A DNA stretch of 64,000 nt from Tepidanaerobacter syntrophicus (lineage in GTDB: Bacteria > Bacillota > Thermosediminibacteria > Thermosediminibacterales > Tepidanaerobacteraceae): positions 62,001 through 126,000 of the forward strand of contig NZ_DF977000.1 of NCBI RefSeq assembly GCF_001485475.2, read 5' to 3'. The notes under the pieces are model-generated. The model did not search any database, was not told the DNA's origin, and saw only the letters and a list, made by a program, of their open reading frames with translations. The stretch's first letter is position 1. Every line of letters begins with the position of its first letter. Of the stretch, positions 3,758 to 59,979 are shown piece by piece. The position numbers and the translations under genes were made by a program.

Positions 3758-6700
3758 TCATAGATTTCGGCTGTCAATAAGCAAATCCTCTTTAGTTGCA
3801 GAAATTTCATCTTCCGACTTTTCGTCAGGTGTATGAATTTTTATATTTTTGTAGCAATTCATTCCTGTTCCTGCAGGTATAAGCTTGCCGAGAATTACAT
3901 TTTCTTTAAGGCCAAGAAGTGAATCCGTCTTTCCCTTGATAGCCGCATCTGTTAAAACTCTTGTAGTTTCTTGGAACGAAGCGGCAGAAAGGAAAGAATC
4001 AGTAGCAAGAGATGCCTTAGTAATACCCAATAACACACGTTTGCCTTCTGCAGGTGCTTTGCCGGCGCTTATCATTTCGTTATTCAGCTCCTCAAACTCA
4101 AAGATGTCTATGAGCTCGCCTGGCAGAAGATCTGTATCGCCGGGCTTTTCTACTTTTATTTTTCTTAGCATCTGCCGGATAATTACTTCGATATGCTTAT
4201 CGTTAATATCTACGCCCTGAAGTCTATAAACCTTAAGCACTTCCTGCAAAAGATAAGTTTGAACTCCTCTTACGCCTTTTATCTTCAATATATCGTGAGG
4301 GTTTACAGAGCCTTCACAAAGTTCATCGCCGGCTTCGATTACATCCCCATTTTCTACAGTAAGGCGTGCTCCATAGGGCACGGTATATGTTTTGGTCTCG
4401 CCGGTGCTTGTAGTAACTTCTACTTCCCTCTTTTTCTTGCTTTCAACTATTTTAACTGTGCCGCTAACTTCACTTATTACAGCTTGACCTTTAGGTTTGC
4501 GTGCTTCAAACAATTCTTCTACACGAGGTAGACCCTGGGTAATGTCCTGCCCTGCGACACCACCAGTATGGAACGTCCTCATAGTAAGCTGGGTGCCGGG
4601 TTCACCGATGGACTGTGCGGCAATTATTCCTACAGACTCTCCAATATCTACAGGCTTACCTGTAGCCATATTCTTGCCATAGCACTTCACGCACACCCCG
4701 TGTCTTGTCCTACAAGTAAGAACTGAACGAATCTTAAGCTCCTTTATCCCTGCATTAATAATGCGATTTGCTATGCTTTCAGTTATAAGTTCATCGGCAG
4801 CTACTAAAATCTCGCCGGTTTGTGGGTCTTTTACATCTTCGGCGGCATACCGACCTTCAATTCGTTCTTTAAGGCCTTCTATAACTCCGCTGCCGTCTTT
4901 GATTGCCTTTACTACTATTCCTTCGGTTGTGCCGCAGTCAGTTTCTCTTACTATAACATCCTGGCTCACATCTACAAGCCTTCTGGTTAGATAACCTGAG
5001 TCTGCCGTTCTTAAAGCTGTATCTGCTAAGCCTTTTCGTGCTCCATGTGTCGATATAAAATACTCAAGAACAGTTAAGCCTTCTCTAAAATTAGCCTTGA
5101 TTGGAAGGTCGATTATTCTGCCTGACGGGTCTGCCATAAGACCTCGCATTCCTGCCAGCTGTCTTATCTGCTGCTTATTGCCTCGAGCGCCTGAATTTGC
5201 CATCATATACAGCGGGTTAAACCGGTCAAGGGAATTCATAAGAGCATCTGTTACTTTTTCAGTAGCCTCGCTCCAGATATTAAGCACGTTTTCATAGCGC
5301 TCTTCTTCAGAAATAAGACCTTTTCTATATAGCTGTTCAACCTGTTCTACTTTCTTATCAGCTTCTGCTAAGATTTCTTCTTTCTCTTTTGGAACCTCTA
5401 TATCTGAAATACCGATGGTTATGCCGGCTTTTGTTGCATAATCAAAGCCTTTCTTTTTTATTTTATCAAGAACTTGAGCTGTAACAGTTGTGCCGTGAAG
5501 GCGATAGCAGCGCTCAATTATATCTCCTAATTTGCTTTTATCTACAAGTGTATTAAGCTCCGGTTCAAACAAATTTTCTTCCTTTGTTCTGTCTACATAA
5601 CCTAAATCTTGGGGTATGCCTTCATTAAATATTAAGCGTCCGGCTGTAGTTTTTATAATCTTATGGCGCTCTATACCATTAATATTTCTTTTGATTCTAA
5701 CATTCACTATTGCATGTAGGCCTATTTCTCCCATTTCATAGGCAAGCACTGTCTCTTCAGGACTTGAGAAAAATCTGCCTTCGCCCTTTTCTCCTGGTCT
5801 TTCTATTGTAAGATAATAGGAGCCTAAAACCATATCCTGAGTAGGTGTTACAACCGGTTTGCCGTCTTGAGGCTTTAGTATATTATTTATAGAAAGCATC
5901 AAAACCCGCGCTTCTGCCTGAGCTTCTGCTGAAAGAGGCAAATGAACAGCCATCTGGTCTCCATCAAAGTCAGCATTGTATGCAGTGCATACCAGTGGAT
6001 GTATCTGTATTGCTCTGCCTTCCACCAGCACCGGTTCGAACGCCTGAATTCCTAAGCGGTGCAGAGTAGGAGCCCTGTTTAAAAGCACCGGATGCTCTTT
6101 TATAATGTCCTCGAGAACATCCCAAACCTCAGGTCTTACACGTTCTACCATGCGTTTTGCGCTTTTTATGTTATGAGCAAAACCGTCTGTAACTAATTTC
6201 TTCATCACAAAAGGTTTAAAAAGTTCAAGTGCCATTTCCTTTGGAAGACCGCATTGATAAAGTTTTAGTTCCGGACCGACTACGATAACAGATCTTCCCG
6301 AATAGTCAACACGCTTGCCCAAAAGATTTTGCCTGAATCTGCCCTGCTTGCCTTTGAGCATATCGCTCAATGACTTTAATGGTCTGTTTCCGGGTCCTGT
6401 AACCGGCCGGCCTCGTCTGCCGTTGTCAATTAGAGCATCTACAGCTTCTTGAAGCATTCTTTTTTCATTTCTTACTATAATATCAGGAGCTCCAAGATCT
6501 AAAAGTCTTTTAAGCCGGTTATTTCTATTAATGACTCTTCTGTATAAGTCATTTAAATCTGATGTGGCAAAGCGTCCGCCGTCAAGCTGCACCATCGGTC
6601 TTAGGTCAGGCGGAATTACAGGTACAACATCTAAAATCATCCATTCAGGCTTATTGCCTGATTTTTTAAATGCCTCAACTACTTCCAACCGTCTTAAAAT

Positions 6701-7312
6701 CTTTACCCTTTTTTGTCCCGTAGCATCCTTTAGCTCTGATCGAAGCTCTTTCGAAAGCTTTTCGCAATCTATTTCTGAAAGAAGCTCTCTTACAGCTTCG
6801 GCCCCCATTGCAGCTCTAAAACTGTCGCCGTATTTATCCCTAAATTCTCGATACTCTTTCTCGTTTAACAATTGTTTTTTCATCAAAGGAGTATCGCCGG
6901 CATTTGTAACTACATATGAAGCAAAATAAATGATCTTTTCCAACGCTCTAGGCGACATATCTAGGATTAATCCTATGCGGCTCGGTATTCCTTTCAAAAA
7001 CCATATATGAGATACCGGTGCCGCCAGTTCAATATGTCCCATTCTTTCACGGCGGACCTTTGATTTTGTAACTTCAACTCCGCAGCGGTCGCAAATGACA
7101 CCTTTATATCTAATTCTCTTATATTTTCCGCAATGACATTCCCAATCTTTTACAGGTCCAAAAATACGTTCGCAAAACAGCCCGTCTTTTTCCGGCTTAA
7201 GAGTTCTATAGTTAATGGTCTCCGGCTTTTTCACTTCACCTTTAGACCATGCTCTGATTTGTTCCGGTGAGGCAAGGCCGATTTTTATGGAATCAAATTC
7301 ATTGAGTTCCAA
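3758..7312 (-). CDS. rpoC: RNA polymerase subunit beta prime
   Basis: 1184 aa, close to the usual Firmicute length. It carries the N-terminal zinc site (CHCGKYK and CDRCG near residues 60-78), the catalytic NADFDGDQM loop around residue 445-455 with the three magnesium-binding aspartates, and the second zinc-site region [13 protein letters not shown] toward the C-terminus. The start is TTG at 7310-7312 with a GGGAGAG site about 10 nt away. It lies 56 nt downstream of rpoB, so co-transcription is expected. No unusual insertion was noticed. Confidence 0.98.
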
Positions 7313-7368: not shown

Positions 7369-10300
7369 CTATTCATCATCGTCATCGTCTTCATCTTCGA
7401 TATTAAGGCTTATGAAATCATCCATATCCTCATCTTCTTCATCTTCATCTTCGTCGTCTGTGTAGTCATCGTATTTATCATCGGTTGTACTGCCACTTCT
7501 TATGCTCATTATGCCTGTAGTTGCCCCTACAAGCTTTTCTTCGCTTTCCAAGCCTTCTAAATTTATATCCATAGGAGCTTCTTCTTCCTCTTCGTCGTCA
7601 TCTTCTTTGAGCTGAATTTCTCCGGCATCTTCTGACAAAATCCTTACATCAAGTGCCAAAGACTGAAGCTCTTTTATTAAGACTTTGAACGATTCCGGTA
7701 TGCCCGGCTCAGGCACATTTTCGCCTTTTACAATAGCTTCGTATGTCTTCACACGTCCTGTAACATCGTCTGATTTCACCGTAAGCATTTCCTGCAGCGT
7801 GTAGCTTGAGCCATAGGCTTCTAGTGCCCAAACTTCCATTTCTCCAAATCTCTGACCGCCAAACTGAGCTTTTCCTCCCAGTGGCTGCTGAGTGACCAGT
7901 GAATAGGGGCCTGTAGAACGAGCATGAATTTTGTCGTCTACCAAGTGGGCAAGTTTAAGCATATACATATAACCTACGGTTACCCGCCTGTCAAAAGGAA
8001 GACCTGTTCTTCCATCCCGCAATTCTACTTTTCCGTCTTCTGTAAGATTTGCTTTTCTTAAAGTCTCAAATATCTCTTCTTCTTGTGCACCATCAAAAAC
8101 AGGTGTAGCCACATACCATCCGAGGGCTCTAGCCGCCCATCCCAGATGGGTTTCAAGCACCTGGCCTATGTTCATACGCGAAGGCACTCCTAAAGGATTC
8201 AATACAATATCTATCGGCGTTCCGTCCGGGAGAAAAGGCATGTCCTCTGCAGGTAATATCCTTGAAATAACACCTTTGTTTCCATGACGTCCTGCCATTT
8301 TGTCTCCTTCAGATATTTTTCGCTTTTGGGCAATATAAACTCTTACAAGTTCGTTGACACCAGGAGAAAGTTCATCGTTGTTTTCCCGGGTAAAGATTTT
8401 AACGTCCACAACAATACCATACTCACCATGAGGGACTCTCAGGGATGTATCTCTTACTTCTCTAGCTTTCTCACCAAAGATAGCCCTCAAAAGTCGTTCT
8501 TCCGCCGTAAGTTCAGTTTCGCCTTTCGGTGTAACTTTTCCGACTAATATGTCGCCTGCCTGAACTTCTGCACCTATTCTTATAATTCCCCGCTCATCTA
8601 AATCTTTTAGTGCATCTTCGCCAACATTGGGAATATCTCTTGTGATTTCTTCGGGACCTAGTTTTGTATCGCGAGATTCAGCTTCATACTGTTCAATATG
8701 AATTGAAGTAAATACATCATCTTTTACGAGCCGTTCAGATAATAATATAGCATCTTCGTAATTGTAACCTTCCCAAGGCATAAAAGCCACAAGTACATTG
8801 CGCCCTAATGCTAATTCACCATGGTCAGTTGAGGGGCCGTCAGCTATAGGCTGGCGTTTTTCCACTCTTTCCCCTCGCTTTACGATGGGTCTTTGATTTA
8901 TACAGGTACCTTGATTTGATCTTATAAATTTATGAACTTTGTATACATCTAAGCCTTTATCGCTGTCACGCCGCACTACAATTTCTCTTCCTGTGACTCT
9001 TTCTACAACACCGCTGTTTTTCGCCAGAATCATTACTCCAGAATCCATGGCGACTTTATGCTCTATACCTGTTCCCACAAAAGGTGCTTCCGGTATTAAA
9101 AGCGGCACTGCCTGGCGCTGCATGTTAGAACCCATTAAAGCTCGATTAGCATCATCATGTTCTAGGAACGGAATAAGGGCTGTTGCAACTGAAACAAGCT
9201 GTTTCGGGGAGACGTCCATATAGTCTACTTCTTCGGGGGATACAATGATATTCTCGTCTGCATATCTTGCAATGATCTTTTTCTCTACAAAGTGTCCTTC
9301 TTCATCTAAGGGAGCATTTGCCTGGGCTATAATATAAAGGTCTTCTTCATCAGCTGTAAGGTAGTCAATTTTGTCTGTAACAATGCCCCGTTCCTTGTCA
9401 ACCTTTCGGTAAGGTGTCTCAATAAAGCCATACTGGTTTACTCTGGCAAATGTACTAAGAGAACCAATTAAACCGATATTAGGTCCTTCAGGGGTTTCTA
9501 TAGGACACATACGGCCATAGTGAGAGTGGTGCACGTCTCGCACTTCAAAACCTGCTCTATCGCGGCTTAAGCCTCCGGGTCCAAGGGCACTGAGTCTACG
9601 CTTGTGTGTAAGTTCAGCAAGAGGGTTCGTCTGATCCATGAATTGTGAAAGCTGGCTGCTGCCAAAAAATTCTTTTATAGCTGCTACAACAGGGCGAATA
9701 TTTATAAGGCCTTGAGGTGTAATAGTATCCACATCCTGTATAGTCATACGTTCTTTAACCACTCGTTCCATTCTGGCAAGGCCTATGCGAAATTGATTCT
9801 GCAATAATTCGCCTACAGACCTTAGTCGTCTATTTCCAAGATGGTCTATATCATCTACGTTCCCAACTTTATAGGGTAAATTTATAAAGTAATTGACAGA
9901 GGCTATAATATCTTCAATTGTTATATGCTTTTCAGATCTATGGCCTTCAGGGCAGCTTTCTTCTGAATATCCATTACTTATAACCTTTACAATCTTTGGA
10001 TGATATTCGCCTTGCGCCTTAGCTTCTCCATAGTCAGGAGGCAATTCTATTTTTAGTTCTTTTATGCGCAAAGACTCTAAAAGCTCTGCTTTCTCTCTAG
10101 TTATCTTTTCGCCTTTTTTAAGGACTATTTCACCTGTCTGAGGATTTTCTATATCTTCGCCGCTTATTTTTCCAATGATTCGATCTCTTAATCTTAATTT
10201 TTTATTGAATTTATATCGGCCAACTTTTGCTAAATCATACCTTTTTGGATCAAAAAAAAGCGAATCAAGTAATGCCTTTGCGTTTTCTACGGTTGGCGGC

Positions 10301-11028
10301 TCACCGGGTCTTAAACGTTTATATATTTCAATTAGAGCTTCGTTTTGATTTTCGGTGCTGTCTTTTTCAAATGTCCTTAGGATTTTCTCATCTTCGCCTA
10401 GCAGTTCTAGTATTTGAGCATTTGTTCCGTATCCTAAAGCTCTGATAAGAACTGTAACCGGCATTTTACGGGTTCTATCCACACGAACATAAAGGACTTC
10501 ATTTGCATCTTGCTCAAGTTCCAGCCATGCACCTCTATTGGGCATAACTGTTCCGGAAAATAATTCTTTGCCGTTTTTGTCTCGCTGGCTGTTAAAATAC
10601 ACGCCGGGAGACCGGACAAGCTGGCTTACGATGACTCGTTCTGCACCGTTAATAATAAAGGTGCCGTTTTCTGTCATTATAGGGAAATCCCCCATAAAAA
10701 CTTCTTGCTCTTTAACTTCGCCTGTTTCCTTATTTATTAATCTGACTTTGACTTTAAGGGGAACAGCGTAAGTAACATCTCTTTCACGGCATTCATCTTC
10801 AGAATACTTAGGCGTGCTTTCAAGCTGATAATCAATAAATTCAAGTACTAAGTTGCCCGTAAAATCTTCAATCGGTGATACATCGCGAAACACTTCTGCA
10901 AGTCCTTCATCCAAGAACCATTGGTACGAATCTCGCTGAATTTCGATTAAATCAGGCATCTCCATAACTTCATTAATTTTCGAGTAGCTCCATCGGGTGC
11001 GATTGCCTACGGAAATAGGTTTAACCAA
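7369..11028 (-). CDS. rpoB: RNA polymerase subunit beta with acidic C-terminal tail
   Basis: 1219 aa. The N-terminus ([16 protein letters not shown]), the rifampicin region ([30 protein letters not shown]) and the C-terminal clamp region ([20 protein letters not shown]) are all conserved and look rifampicin sensitive. The start is TTG at 11026-11028 with a GAGAAGGAAA site. Beyond the normal end, residues about 1140-1219 form a strongly acidic low-complexity tail, with runs such as DDEEEEE and [13 protein letters not shown]. Unlike the usual order, no rplL lies upstream; a sigma-A promoter sits about 200 nt upstream of the start. Confidence 0.98.
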
Positions 11029-11061
11029 GTTTCCTTCTCTCCTTTTTATAAGTAAAAATAG

Positions 11062-11089
11062 CCAAAAGCTGTTTGATTGTTGCTTTTGG
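11062..11089 (-). promoter_or_regulatory. Stem-loop in the rpoB leader, possible attenuator
   Basis: CCAAAAGC (11062-11069) and GCTTTTGG (11082-11089) form an 8-bp stem with a 12-nt loop. On the minus strand it is followed by CTATTTTTAC, a weak U-tract, and then the rpoB ribosome binding site. It could be a weak terminator/attenuator in the leader. The plus strand also shows a T-run after the stem, but no plus-strand gene precedes it. Confidence 0.5.
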
Positions 11090-11115
11090 TTTTTATAGTA
11101 AAATAGTGTATATTA

Positions 11116-11145
11116 ATTATGATTTACTTTATTATGATTTACTTT
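11116..11145. repeat. Perfect 15-bp tandem repeat in the rpoB leader
   Basis: ATTATGATTTACTTT occurs twice, head to tail (11116-11130 and 11131-11145), in the A+T-rich region between the rpoB promoter and its start codon. It would be transcribed as part of the leader. Function unknown. Confidence 0.85.
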
Positions 11146-11231
11146 TTTATTTTTAAACTCGCGTCCAAATCATTTTTAAAAGTAAATATTTGGCATAGTT
11201 TTTGCATGTAACGATTATTATGCAGTTTATT

Positions 11232-11260
11232 ATGATATCACATTATTGCAATACTGTCAA
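11232..11260 (-). promoter_or_regulatory. Sigma-A promoter of the rpoB operon
   Basis: On the minus strand TTGACA (11255-11260) is followed after exactly 17 nt by TATCAT (11232-11237). Predicted transcription start is near 11225, giving a leader of about 200 nt before the rpoB TTG. This is the only strong promoter seen in the rpoB/fetA intergenic region. Confidence 0.8.
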
Positions 11261-13592: not shown

Positions 13593-13600
13593 CTCCTTTA

Positions 13601-13640
13601 TTCTGATAAGTTTTATATTATTCTGATAAGTTTTATAAAT
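13601..13640. repeat. Two tandem 20-nt units upstream of the TauE/SafE gene
   Basis: TTCTGATAAGTTTTATATTA is followed directly by a second unit in which the first 17 bases are identical. The pair begins 9 nt upstream of the permease start codon (it overlaps the expected promoter/leader), so it may be a repeated binding site. No regulator is identified. Confidence 0.75.
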
Positions 13641-16020: not shown

Positions 16021-16962
16021 CTAAACAGATGAGTCCGTGCGTAATTCAAGATTTTCTACAAGATAAGCTTCCATGATATCTGATTCGCTTACTGTAATTT
16101 GGCTAATATTAAAATCTTCCATGATTGATTTGGCTATTAAAACTCCTGCTGTAATAATATCGGCTCTCTGCGGCATAAGGCCTTTAACCTTTAGTCTTTC
16201 TTCTGATGTTTTAAAAAGCAGTTTTAAAAATATGTCATCAATAGTCTGCTTATTTAACACATATCCATGAACTTTATTAGAATCGTAAACCTCCAGTTCT
16301 TGTGCGACAGCAGCAAGGGTTGTTAAGGTTCCGCCTACTCCAATAACAGTTACTTCTTTGCTTTCTTTAACTTTCTTAAAATAATCGGCAAAATCCTTTA
16401 TCATCAGGTCAATTTGTTTGCGAGCTTGGGCAATTTCGTTAAAAGCAGGCGGATCTGACTTTATATACTTCTGTGTCCATCTGACTGCTCCGATAGGCAA
16501 GCTCTCGGCTTTTTCTATCTTTTCATCGTCGCCTAAAACAAATTCCGTTGAGTTTCCGCCTATATCTATTACCAAAGAAACTTCAACTGTTTTAAGTCCT
16601 AGCCTTGCTCCAAAAAACGACAAGAGAGCTTCTCGCTCTCCTGAAAGAATTTCTACATTAATTCCTATTTCTTTTGTCTTTTCTAAAAGTGCGCTGCTAT
16701 TAGATGCTTCTCTGAGAGCGCTTGTCCCAAAAGCAAAAATCCTTTCACTTCCGAGGGATTTTGCCTTATTTCGAAAATTTACAAGGGCTGAGACAGTATC
16801 GCTTATTGACTTTTCATCAAGTATATTGTTTTGATTTACTCCTCGGCCAAGACGCGTAGTTATGAGATCTCTTGCCACAGGAATAACCTCGCCCTTGGAA
16901 GAGATATCCGCCACCAGCAATCTTATTGAATTAGAGCCCAGGTCTATCACTGCAGCCCTCAT
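16021..16962 (-). CDS. ppx: Ppx/GppA exopolyphosphatase family protein
   Basis: 313 aa, the short single-module form. It has the actin-like phosphate loops: AVIDLGSNSIRLLVAD at the N-terminus, LVIDIGGNSTEFVLG in the middle and VIGVGGTLTTLAAV near residue 215. Enzymes of this family remove terminal phosphate from polyphosphate or the pentaphosphate of (p)ppGpp; the C-terminal HD extension of long Ppx forms is missing. It is the last gene of the spoVB-mazG-hup-divIC-yabR-ppx series, about 90 nt after yabR. In many clostridia ppx follows yabR, which supports the call. Confidence 0.88.
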   Translation of the reverse strand: MRAAVIDLGSNSIRLLVADISSKGEVIPVARDLITTRLGRGVNQNNILDEKSISDTVSALVNFRNKAKSLGSERIFAFGTSALREASNSSALLEKTKEIGINVEILSGEREALLSFFGARLGLKTVEVSLVIDIGGNSTEFVLGDDEKIEKAESLPIGAVRWTQKYIKSDPPAFNEIAQARKQIDLMIKDFADYFKKVKESKEVTVIGVGGTLTTLAAVAQELEVYDSNKVHGYVLNKQTIDDIFLKLLFKTSEERLKVKGLMPQRADIITAGVLIAKSIMEDFNISQITVSESDIMEAYLVENLELRTDSSV

Positions 16963-57807: not shown

Positions 57808-58135
57808 TAAAAAAACCGTCCCTACTACAGGGACGGTTGCTTCCGTGGTGCCACCCAAATTAGCTTTACATCGGGTGTATATAACAAAAGCATCTCATCT
57901 TCAGGATGAAATGCTTGCCACCTCAATGTAAAACTCACTCTTATCAGATACAGCGATATTATCGCGATATCCTGTCCTTTGCTAACGGGGGACGTGCCGT
58001 GCAAAGCTACTTAAACTATTTCGCCTTGCCTTCTCCGGGACCCATTCACTATGACTTTCGGTGCCGCACTCCCACCACCGGCGGCTCTCTTCGACCTTCT
58101 GCCAAAGCTACTCTTTCCCATCACTGAATTTCCGA
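57808..58135 (-). promoter_or_regulatory. Tryptophan T-box leader with terminator
   Basis: The minus strand carries the T-box sequence GGGTGGCACCACGG (57843-57856), followed by the terminator stem AACCGTCCCT/AGGGACGGTT (57814-57838) and a T-run (57808-57813). Upstream is a long Stem I region; GTGAATGGG at 58041-58049 places a TGG (Trp) specifier codon at 58042-58044. Uncharged tRNA-Trp would favour the antiterminator and expression of trpB2-trpP. About 200 nt of further leader (57602-57807) separate it from the first gene; I see no second switch there. Confidence 0.93.
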
Positions 58136-59812: not shown

Positions 59813-59830
59813 CCGCTTCACACAAAAAAT

Positions 59831-59954
59831 CAATCTTCTTCCATCCAGACTTTACTGTCGGCCTCGGAATCTCACCGATGTCTGCTTTCGCTCGCGGGCT
59901 AACGGCACCTGCCGCATTACCGCCGGTCGGGAATTGCACCCTGCCCCGAAGATT
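59831..59954 (-). ncRNA. FMN riboswitch (RFN element)
   Basis: The minus strand contains the RFN landmarks: ATCTTCGGGGCAGGGTG, ATTCCCGACCGGCGGTA, TTAGCCCGCGAGCG, and CCGACAGTAAAGTCTGGATG, ending in GAAGAAGATT that closes with the 5' end. FMN binding should favour the terminator and switch off ribU. Confidence 0.96.
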
Positions 59955-59979
59955 ATATCCGGTTTTTTTAACTAACTCC

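Follow-up and report, generated by a model that had tools for sequence, protein, structure and literature searches.

How is the production of RNA polymerase set in a bacterium whose rpoB gene does not stand beside the genes for ribosomal proteins? To our knowledge, little is understood about how the level of this enzyme is set in bacteria besides E. coli. The question is raised by a 64,000-nucleotide stretch of the Tepidanaerobacter syntrophicus genome (contig NZ_DF977000.1, positions 62,001 to 126,000; the whole stretch is called the window below). Here rpoB occupies positions 7369..11028 of the minus strand, with a TTG start at 11028, as identified from a family match and its translation; rpoC follows at 3758..7312 on the same strand and takes its name from the translation alone. 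A first-pass annotation had proposed that rplL, normally just upstream of rpoB, has been replaced by a divergent exporter gene, that rpoB starts from its own promoter with an unusual leader, and that polymerase synthesis is therefore uncoupled from the rplKAJL operon.

Gene neighbourhood upstream of rpoB

As had been claimed, rplL is absent beside rpoB in this genome. Divergent from rpoB on the plus strand are an ABC ATPase (PF00005, 11347..12012) and a UPF0014 permease (PF03649, 12009..12779), both assigned by family matches, which we take to be FetA-like and FetB-like, respectively. A genome search found one L7/L12 gene in the assembly, on contig C7. It is preceded by open reading frames that we read from their translations as nusG-rplK-rplA-rplJ, and is followed by an Hsp20-like frame on the opposite strand rather than by rpoB. 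Because rpoB lies about 73 kb into contig C6, it is apart from rplKAJL.

The exporter, however, did not take the place of rplL. We compared 21 loci at the order level (families f1 and f2, the window included), in which ppx/gppA, in the same orientation, was the direct upstream neighbour of rpoB in 14 and rplL was found upstream in none, the stretch searched being 1.5 kb at most. The other seven loci comprised the window itself (fetA), one locus ending at a contig end (299 nt) and five that matched none of the seven query genes. Among more distant loci of the class, rplL lay 373 and 367 nt before rpoB in L198 and L200, respectively; the upstream sequence of L199 ends at 467 nt, and L201 matched none of the query genes. 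In the window, ppx/gppA (PF02541, family match) is displaced to 16021..16962 on the minus strand, and the interval between it and rpoB holds an Oxidored_FMN/Pyr_redox_2 enzyme, a TauE-type permease and the divergent ABC ATPase/UPF0014 pair. In both genomes of the same genus ppx is still adjacent to rpoB, from which we infer that an inserted block split the two genes recently in the lineage of the window.

The rpoB promoter in the window and across the phylum

The promoter reported by the first-pass annotation, TTGACA-17-TATCAT, is present on the minus strand at 11260-11232. The -35 hexamer TTGACA (11255..11260), of which TTGAC is invariant in 12 family rows, is separated by 17 nt from the -10 hexamer TATCAT (11232..11237), and the spacer ends in TGTGA, which supplies an extended -10 TG (11239..11240). 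In sequence, therefore, the site has the TTGACA, the 17-nt spacer and the TGnTAnnaT of an extended -10 vegetative promoter. It scored 11/12. Sites scoring at least 9/12 were not enriched in the region (three found versus 3.4 expected from shuffles), so that the call rests on the score of 11/12, the extended -10 TG and conservation. Transcription is predicted to start at 11226-11223, within a start region with a conserved TGC (11222..11226, minus strand), which places the previously suggested start at 11225 inside the predicted range. The leader would thus run for about 195 nt to the TTG at 11028, in line with the earlier estimate of about 200 nt. The predicted fold of this leader RNA was better than those of 199 of 200 shuffles (z -2.43), and includes an 8-bp hairpin that is described below.

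To see the promoter in a wider context, we assembled 130 rpoB upstream sequences, namely 25 loci of the class, a second rpoB copy of one class genome (G006, locus L203) and 104 loci from other families of the phylum. The 25 class loci were drawn from 26 genomes, as G003 has no contig spanning the rpoB start and its upstream region. The rpoB search matched 177 of 179 phylum genomes, and the 104 loci were picked among the matches listed: 24 were loci returned by the search, and the remaining 80 we chose manually, mainly to cover many families and without having yet read their leaders. Of the 130 upstream sequences, 110 had a promoter with a score of 10/12 or higher (shuffle mean, 15.25), and 111, including 24 of the 25 class leaders, had the strict pattern TTGAC[AT]-17-TAnnnT. 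The strict pattern sits at a median of 212 nt before the start codon, counted from TTGACA. In 90 non-redundant rpoB promoters, the extended -10 was T in 98% and G in 98%, and the positions 8, 9 and 10 nt after the -10 were T (98%), G (94%) and C (61%); the extended -10 TG and the TG after the -10 are columns outside the pattern selection, and the control set for these letters comprises only nine sites. We also note that the near-invariant TG 8-9 nt past the -10 falls at the expected transcription start.

The loci that retain rplL are informative here. In 87 of them rplL stands no more than 1.2 kb upstream (the widest gap is 1136 nt, and 73 gaps are within 500 nt), and in 80 of these the strict promoter lies between rplL and rpoB, which argues that the own promoter did not arise through loss of rplL. 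In 38 of the 80, a strong terminator precedes the promoter (shuffle mean, 0.2). An own promoter for rpoBC therefore seems to be the rule among the sampled upstream sequences; neither the promoter nor the length of the leader is unusual, and the notion that rpoBC was specially uncoupled in this genome is corrected by how common such a promoter is in the phylum. We consider that the best explanation of these sequences is that rpoBC has a dedicated promoter, deeply conserved and of the extended -10 vegetative type, from which it is transcribed.

The leader hairpin and its conservation

The 8-bp hairpin followed by a weak U-tract, which had been noticed at first pass, lies on the minus strand at 11062..11089, at a distance of about 135 nt from the predicted transcription start and of 33 nt from the rpoB start codon. 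Its arms, CCAAAAGC (11089-11082) and GCTTTTGG (11069-11062), enclose a 12-nt loop. The tail CTATTTTTACTTATA (11047..11061), which is conserved in the class, forms the weak U-tract, with a T-score of 2.74 after the 8-bp stem, and the ribosome-binding region AAAAGGAGAGAAGGAAAC (11029..11046) occupies the space between the tail and the rpoB start.

The 20-mer GCTTTTGGCTATTTTTACTT occurs with at most two mismatches in 20 of the 26 class genomes; the sole match in G011 is not at rpoB, and the contig of G003 ends before the gene. Counted by leaders, 16 of 25 have it exactly and 18 have it with two mismatches at most. Paired arms at most 220 nt from rpoB were found in 21 of the 25 class leaders. The pattern is absent from the remaining four (L190, L191, L074 and L192, from genera g4 and g6 of the same family), all of which retain the promoter and in none of which ppx was found upstream of rpoB. 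A search of named genomes for the exact 20-mer gave 16 stretches, of which 11 have rpoB just downstream and a twelfth (L045) ends before rpoB. The occurrences in Ruminiclostridium, Aerococcus, Chryseobacterium and Prochlorococcus had no rpoB match and were rejected, as they resemble chance matches or, in Aerococcus, a terminator.

At the equivalent place in other families we found GCRAGG...CCTTGC, usually as AAGCGAGG...CCTTGCTT. Together, the two hairpin patterns matched 62 of the 130 upstream sequences (21 class loci, L203 and 40 loci outside the class), with none in the reversed control and 0.12 per set in shuffles; the other 68 matched neither. By manual mapping to taxonomy tables, the 40 outside loci span 25 families, so that, with five families within the class, the hairpin occurs in at least 30. 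It was found in 25 of 43 loci without rplL within 1.2 kb and in 37 of 87 with it. In 58 of the 59 loci that have both elements the hairpin lies downstream of the promoter, and therefore it would be part of the rpoB transcript. The distance between the arms ranges from 12 to 32 nt for the 8-nt arms of the class and from 6 to 27 nt for the core arms of the other form, as a stem-loop would show. The second rpoB start of G006 (L203, G006:C1:11088-12281), which carries its own promoter and a related hairpin, is about 70% identical to that of the window and comes from a draft genome; it could be contamination.

Next, we built a model, R1, from an alignment (A1) of 49 of the 62 hairpin loci; 13 near-duplicate or long-loop rows were omitted (L184, L195, L199, L106, L107, L111, L128, L141, L142, L146, L147, L160 and L167). 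In whole-genome searches, R1 matched 24 of the 26 class genomes at E<=0.1 and at least 92 of the 179 phylum genomes at E<=0.05. Among the phylum matches listed, 27 reached at least 40 bits and 24 of these were at rpoB, mostly in genomes that had supplied rows of the model; the other three of the 27, in G182:C2, G143:C3 and G133:C1:3217185, were not at rpoB. Weaker matches were often away from rpoB, with 16 in G143 alone. We inspected 19 matching stretches, namely 15 strong or unclear ones, two secondary ones from the genome of the window and two with a known rpoB (L224 and L225). Eight had rpoB and 11 did not, and nine of these 11 showed a look-alike stem, in seven cases on both strands, mostly with U-runs of at least five, and terminator-like. 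Seven of the eight rpoB leaders came from genomes that had supplied no row to the model (G040, G067, G084, G120, G148, G173 and G196). Since R1 alone lacks specificity, the element is defined by its place before rpoB.

The covariation score of the alignment was 0.213 versus 0.174, above all shuffles (0/500). Pairs changed on both sides were unexceptional in number (six versus 4.7 in shuffles; 108/500) and mostly outer ones, and the pattern used for selection had fixed the core; therefore, we regard the covariation as weak support.

In its conservation, the hairpin differs from the other feature noticed in the leader, a perfect 15-bp tandem repeat. The two copies of AAAGTAAATCATAAT are indeed present at 11145-11116 (11116..11145, minus strand). 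Perfect tandem duplications with a unit of 12-30 nt appeared in only 10 of 20,000 leaders simulated with a first-order Markov model, and the duplication is thus not expected by chance. An alignment with 11 further leaders of the family showed the repeat in none of them, and no other locus compared has the exact 15-mer. Of the conservation expected for repeat and hairpin, only that of the hairpin was therefore borne out. In the predicted fold of the window, an AAGUAAA in the repeat region is paired to the UUUACUU in the conserved tail; because relatives lack the repeat, we consider this pairing private to the window and discarded the idea that the repeat has a function. Another inverted repeat, TATAATGTTTCCTGTTTTAGGAGATAGTATAATAGA or a similar sequence, is conserved in 11 of 12 rows of family f1 (columns 191-223 of alignment A2), and the tandem repeat occupies its place in the window, at about 11112-11150. 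The only other perfect tandem duplication in the window with a unit of 12-30 nt is at 13598-13637 (20-nt unit), just upstream of the TauE gene start.

Possible roles of the hairpin and known systems

As expected of an attenuator, the stem-loop lies in the 5' leader upstream of the gene that it would regulate. We calculated T-scores for the sequences following the stems. After the GCRAGG/CCTTGC core, the median was 3.9 (n=41), whereas random positions of the same leaders gave 2.01, with a 95th percentile of 3.55. The class form, CCAAAAGC, had a median of 2.76 (n=22; window 2.74), which is below that percentile, and the window reaches 3.94 if the inner stem alone is counted. The median was 4.75 for 17 look-alike sites that are not at rpoB (nine loci, both strands), three of them scoring below 3.6. 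Because the U-tract is weaker than in these look-alike terminators, our best guess, held tentatively, is that the hairpin is a pause site or a conditional attenuator in the rpoB transcript. If rpoBC transcription starts where predicted and the hairpin acts as RNA, the leader would fold into a terminator-like hairpin with a weak U-tract, at which RNA polymerase would pause and, in a fraction of passes, terminate. The hairpin would thus set the amount of rpoBC mRNA, and a factor sensing free polymerase or the state of elongation, such as Nus factors or the polymerase itself, may shift the terminated fraction. A pattern scan restricted to loops of 3-8 found no terminator-like site in the rpoB leader region, and no conserved, mutually exclusive antiterminator was predicted on 12 family leaders. 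The consensus fold of these leaders (-5.21 kcal/mol) does not contain the hairpin, as four of the 12 rows lack it.

A strong rival, which we rank after the attenuator and consider possible but somewhat less probable, is sequence-specific binding or processing at the hairpin, by a regulatory protein, RNA polymerase or an RNase; the site would then control the stability or translation of rpoB mRNA rather than termination. In the 31 rows picked by the core, letters that the pattern does not require are conserved (A8 in 31, A7 in 27, T41 in 31, T42 in 28 and T43 in 31); three rows of family f75 carry T-A in place of A7-T42. In most rows the 5' arm reads GCGAGG, so that one pair is G-U (GU in 27, AU in 13 and other in nine of 49 rows) and the two strands are unequal. 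The conserved class tail within the 20-mer and the position of the 3' arm, with a median of 46 nt between its end and the start codon in the pattern-positive loci, would also suit such a site. However, the core letters are conserved partly by construction, because the rows were selected by a pattern that requires them, and T41-T43 fit a U-tract equally well. In addition, the hairpin has no known binding partner, and the ribosome site lies outside the stem.

We also considered an ordinary constitutive leader, in which the hairpin is left over from the rplL-rpoB junction or is a stem that stabilizes the mRNA without a regulatory role. The four class leaders that keep the promoter and lack the pattern, and the 68 sequences without it overall, agree with this idea and speak against the attenuator. 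However, it is hard to explain without selection that the 20-mer is conserved in the class and that the core recurs in 25 outside families, and the hairpin lies after the promoter in 58 of 59 loci, whereas the terminators that follow rplL precede it. We therefore regard this explanation as improbable. A DNA operator palindrome for a repressor would account for an inverted repeat in a promoter-proximal region, but it is very hard to credit given that the arms are anywhere from 6 to 32 nt apart, that they contain G-U pairs and that in the window they lie about 135 nt downstream of the predicted start.

Returning to the pause or conditional attenuator, the own promoter together with the conserved hairpin makes a separate control of RNA polymerase synthesis plausible, judging from the sequences; what stands of the original proposal is the own promoter and the conserved hairpin, and not the uncoupling through replacement of rplL. 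It is conceivable, though rather doubtful, that the hairpin of at least 30 families and the stereotyped promoter and start region form a feedback device that gauges free RNA polymerase, tunes rpoBC and moves with rpoB out of the ribosomal-protein operon. The hairpin looks like an uncharacterized control point for RNA polymerase production. With a short, defined hairpin before rpoB in so many families and near-invariant promoter letters, the question of how the level of RNA polymerase is set becomes directly testable with reporters.

Searches with Rfam 15, at gathering as well as permissive thresholds, found nothing at the rpoB leader of the window, and on 40 relative loci the only matches over threshold were L10 leaders, with none at an rpoB leader. 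Elsewhere in the window, a T-box leader (57826-58133) and an FMN riboswitch (59829-59957), both on the minus strand, scored above the Rfam gathering score. A 'Firmicutes-rpoB' RNA motif, which is reported in a 2017 list of 224 candidate structured RNAs as being conserved before rpoB in Firmicutes, may be the hairpin described here, and in that case the element has already been described. This name was not found in the full-text literature that we searched, nor did we recognize there a paper describing this rpoB leader, most subscription papers being outside its scope.

Three other known kinds of element can be set beside the hairpin. Intrinsic terminators of the form AAAGCAAGG...CCTTGCTTTTTT share the stem type and made up the bulk of the off-target R1 matches that we checked; they mostly have longer U-runs and often show the pattern on both strands, whereas the rpoB leaders have about four U followed by mixed sequence. 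The Rfam L10 leader (RF00557), found in several relatives, is likewise a leader element, that of the neighbouring ribosomal genes, but it precedes rplJ, whereas our hairpin precedes rpoB. The nearest functional parallel is in E. coli, where, according to PMC4670729, an attenuator in the rplL-rpoB gap decouples the RNA polymerase subunits from the ribosomal proteins; the reference list of PMC5371410 also includes work on attenuation and processing of the E. coli rplJL-rpoBC RNA. Both elements stand before rpoB and can be likened by position and putative function. However, the E. coli attenuator sits in a gap within an operon that also comprises rplKAJL, whereas in the window the hairpin belongs to the leader that follows a promoter dedicated to rpoB.
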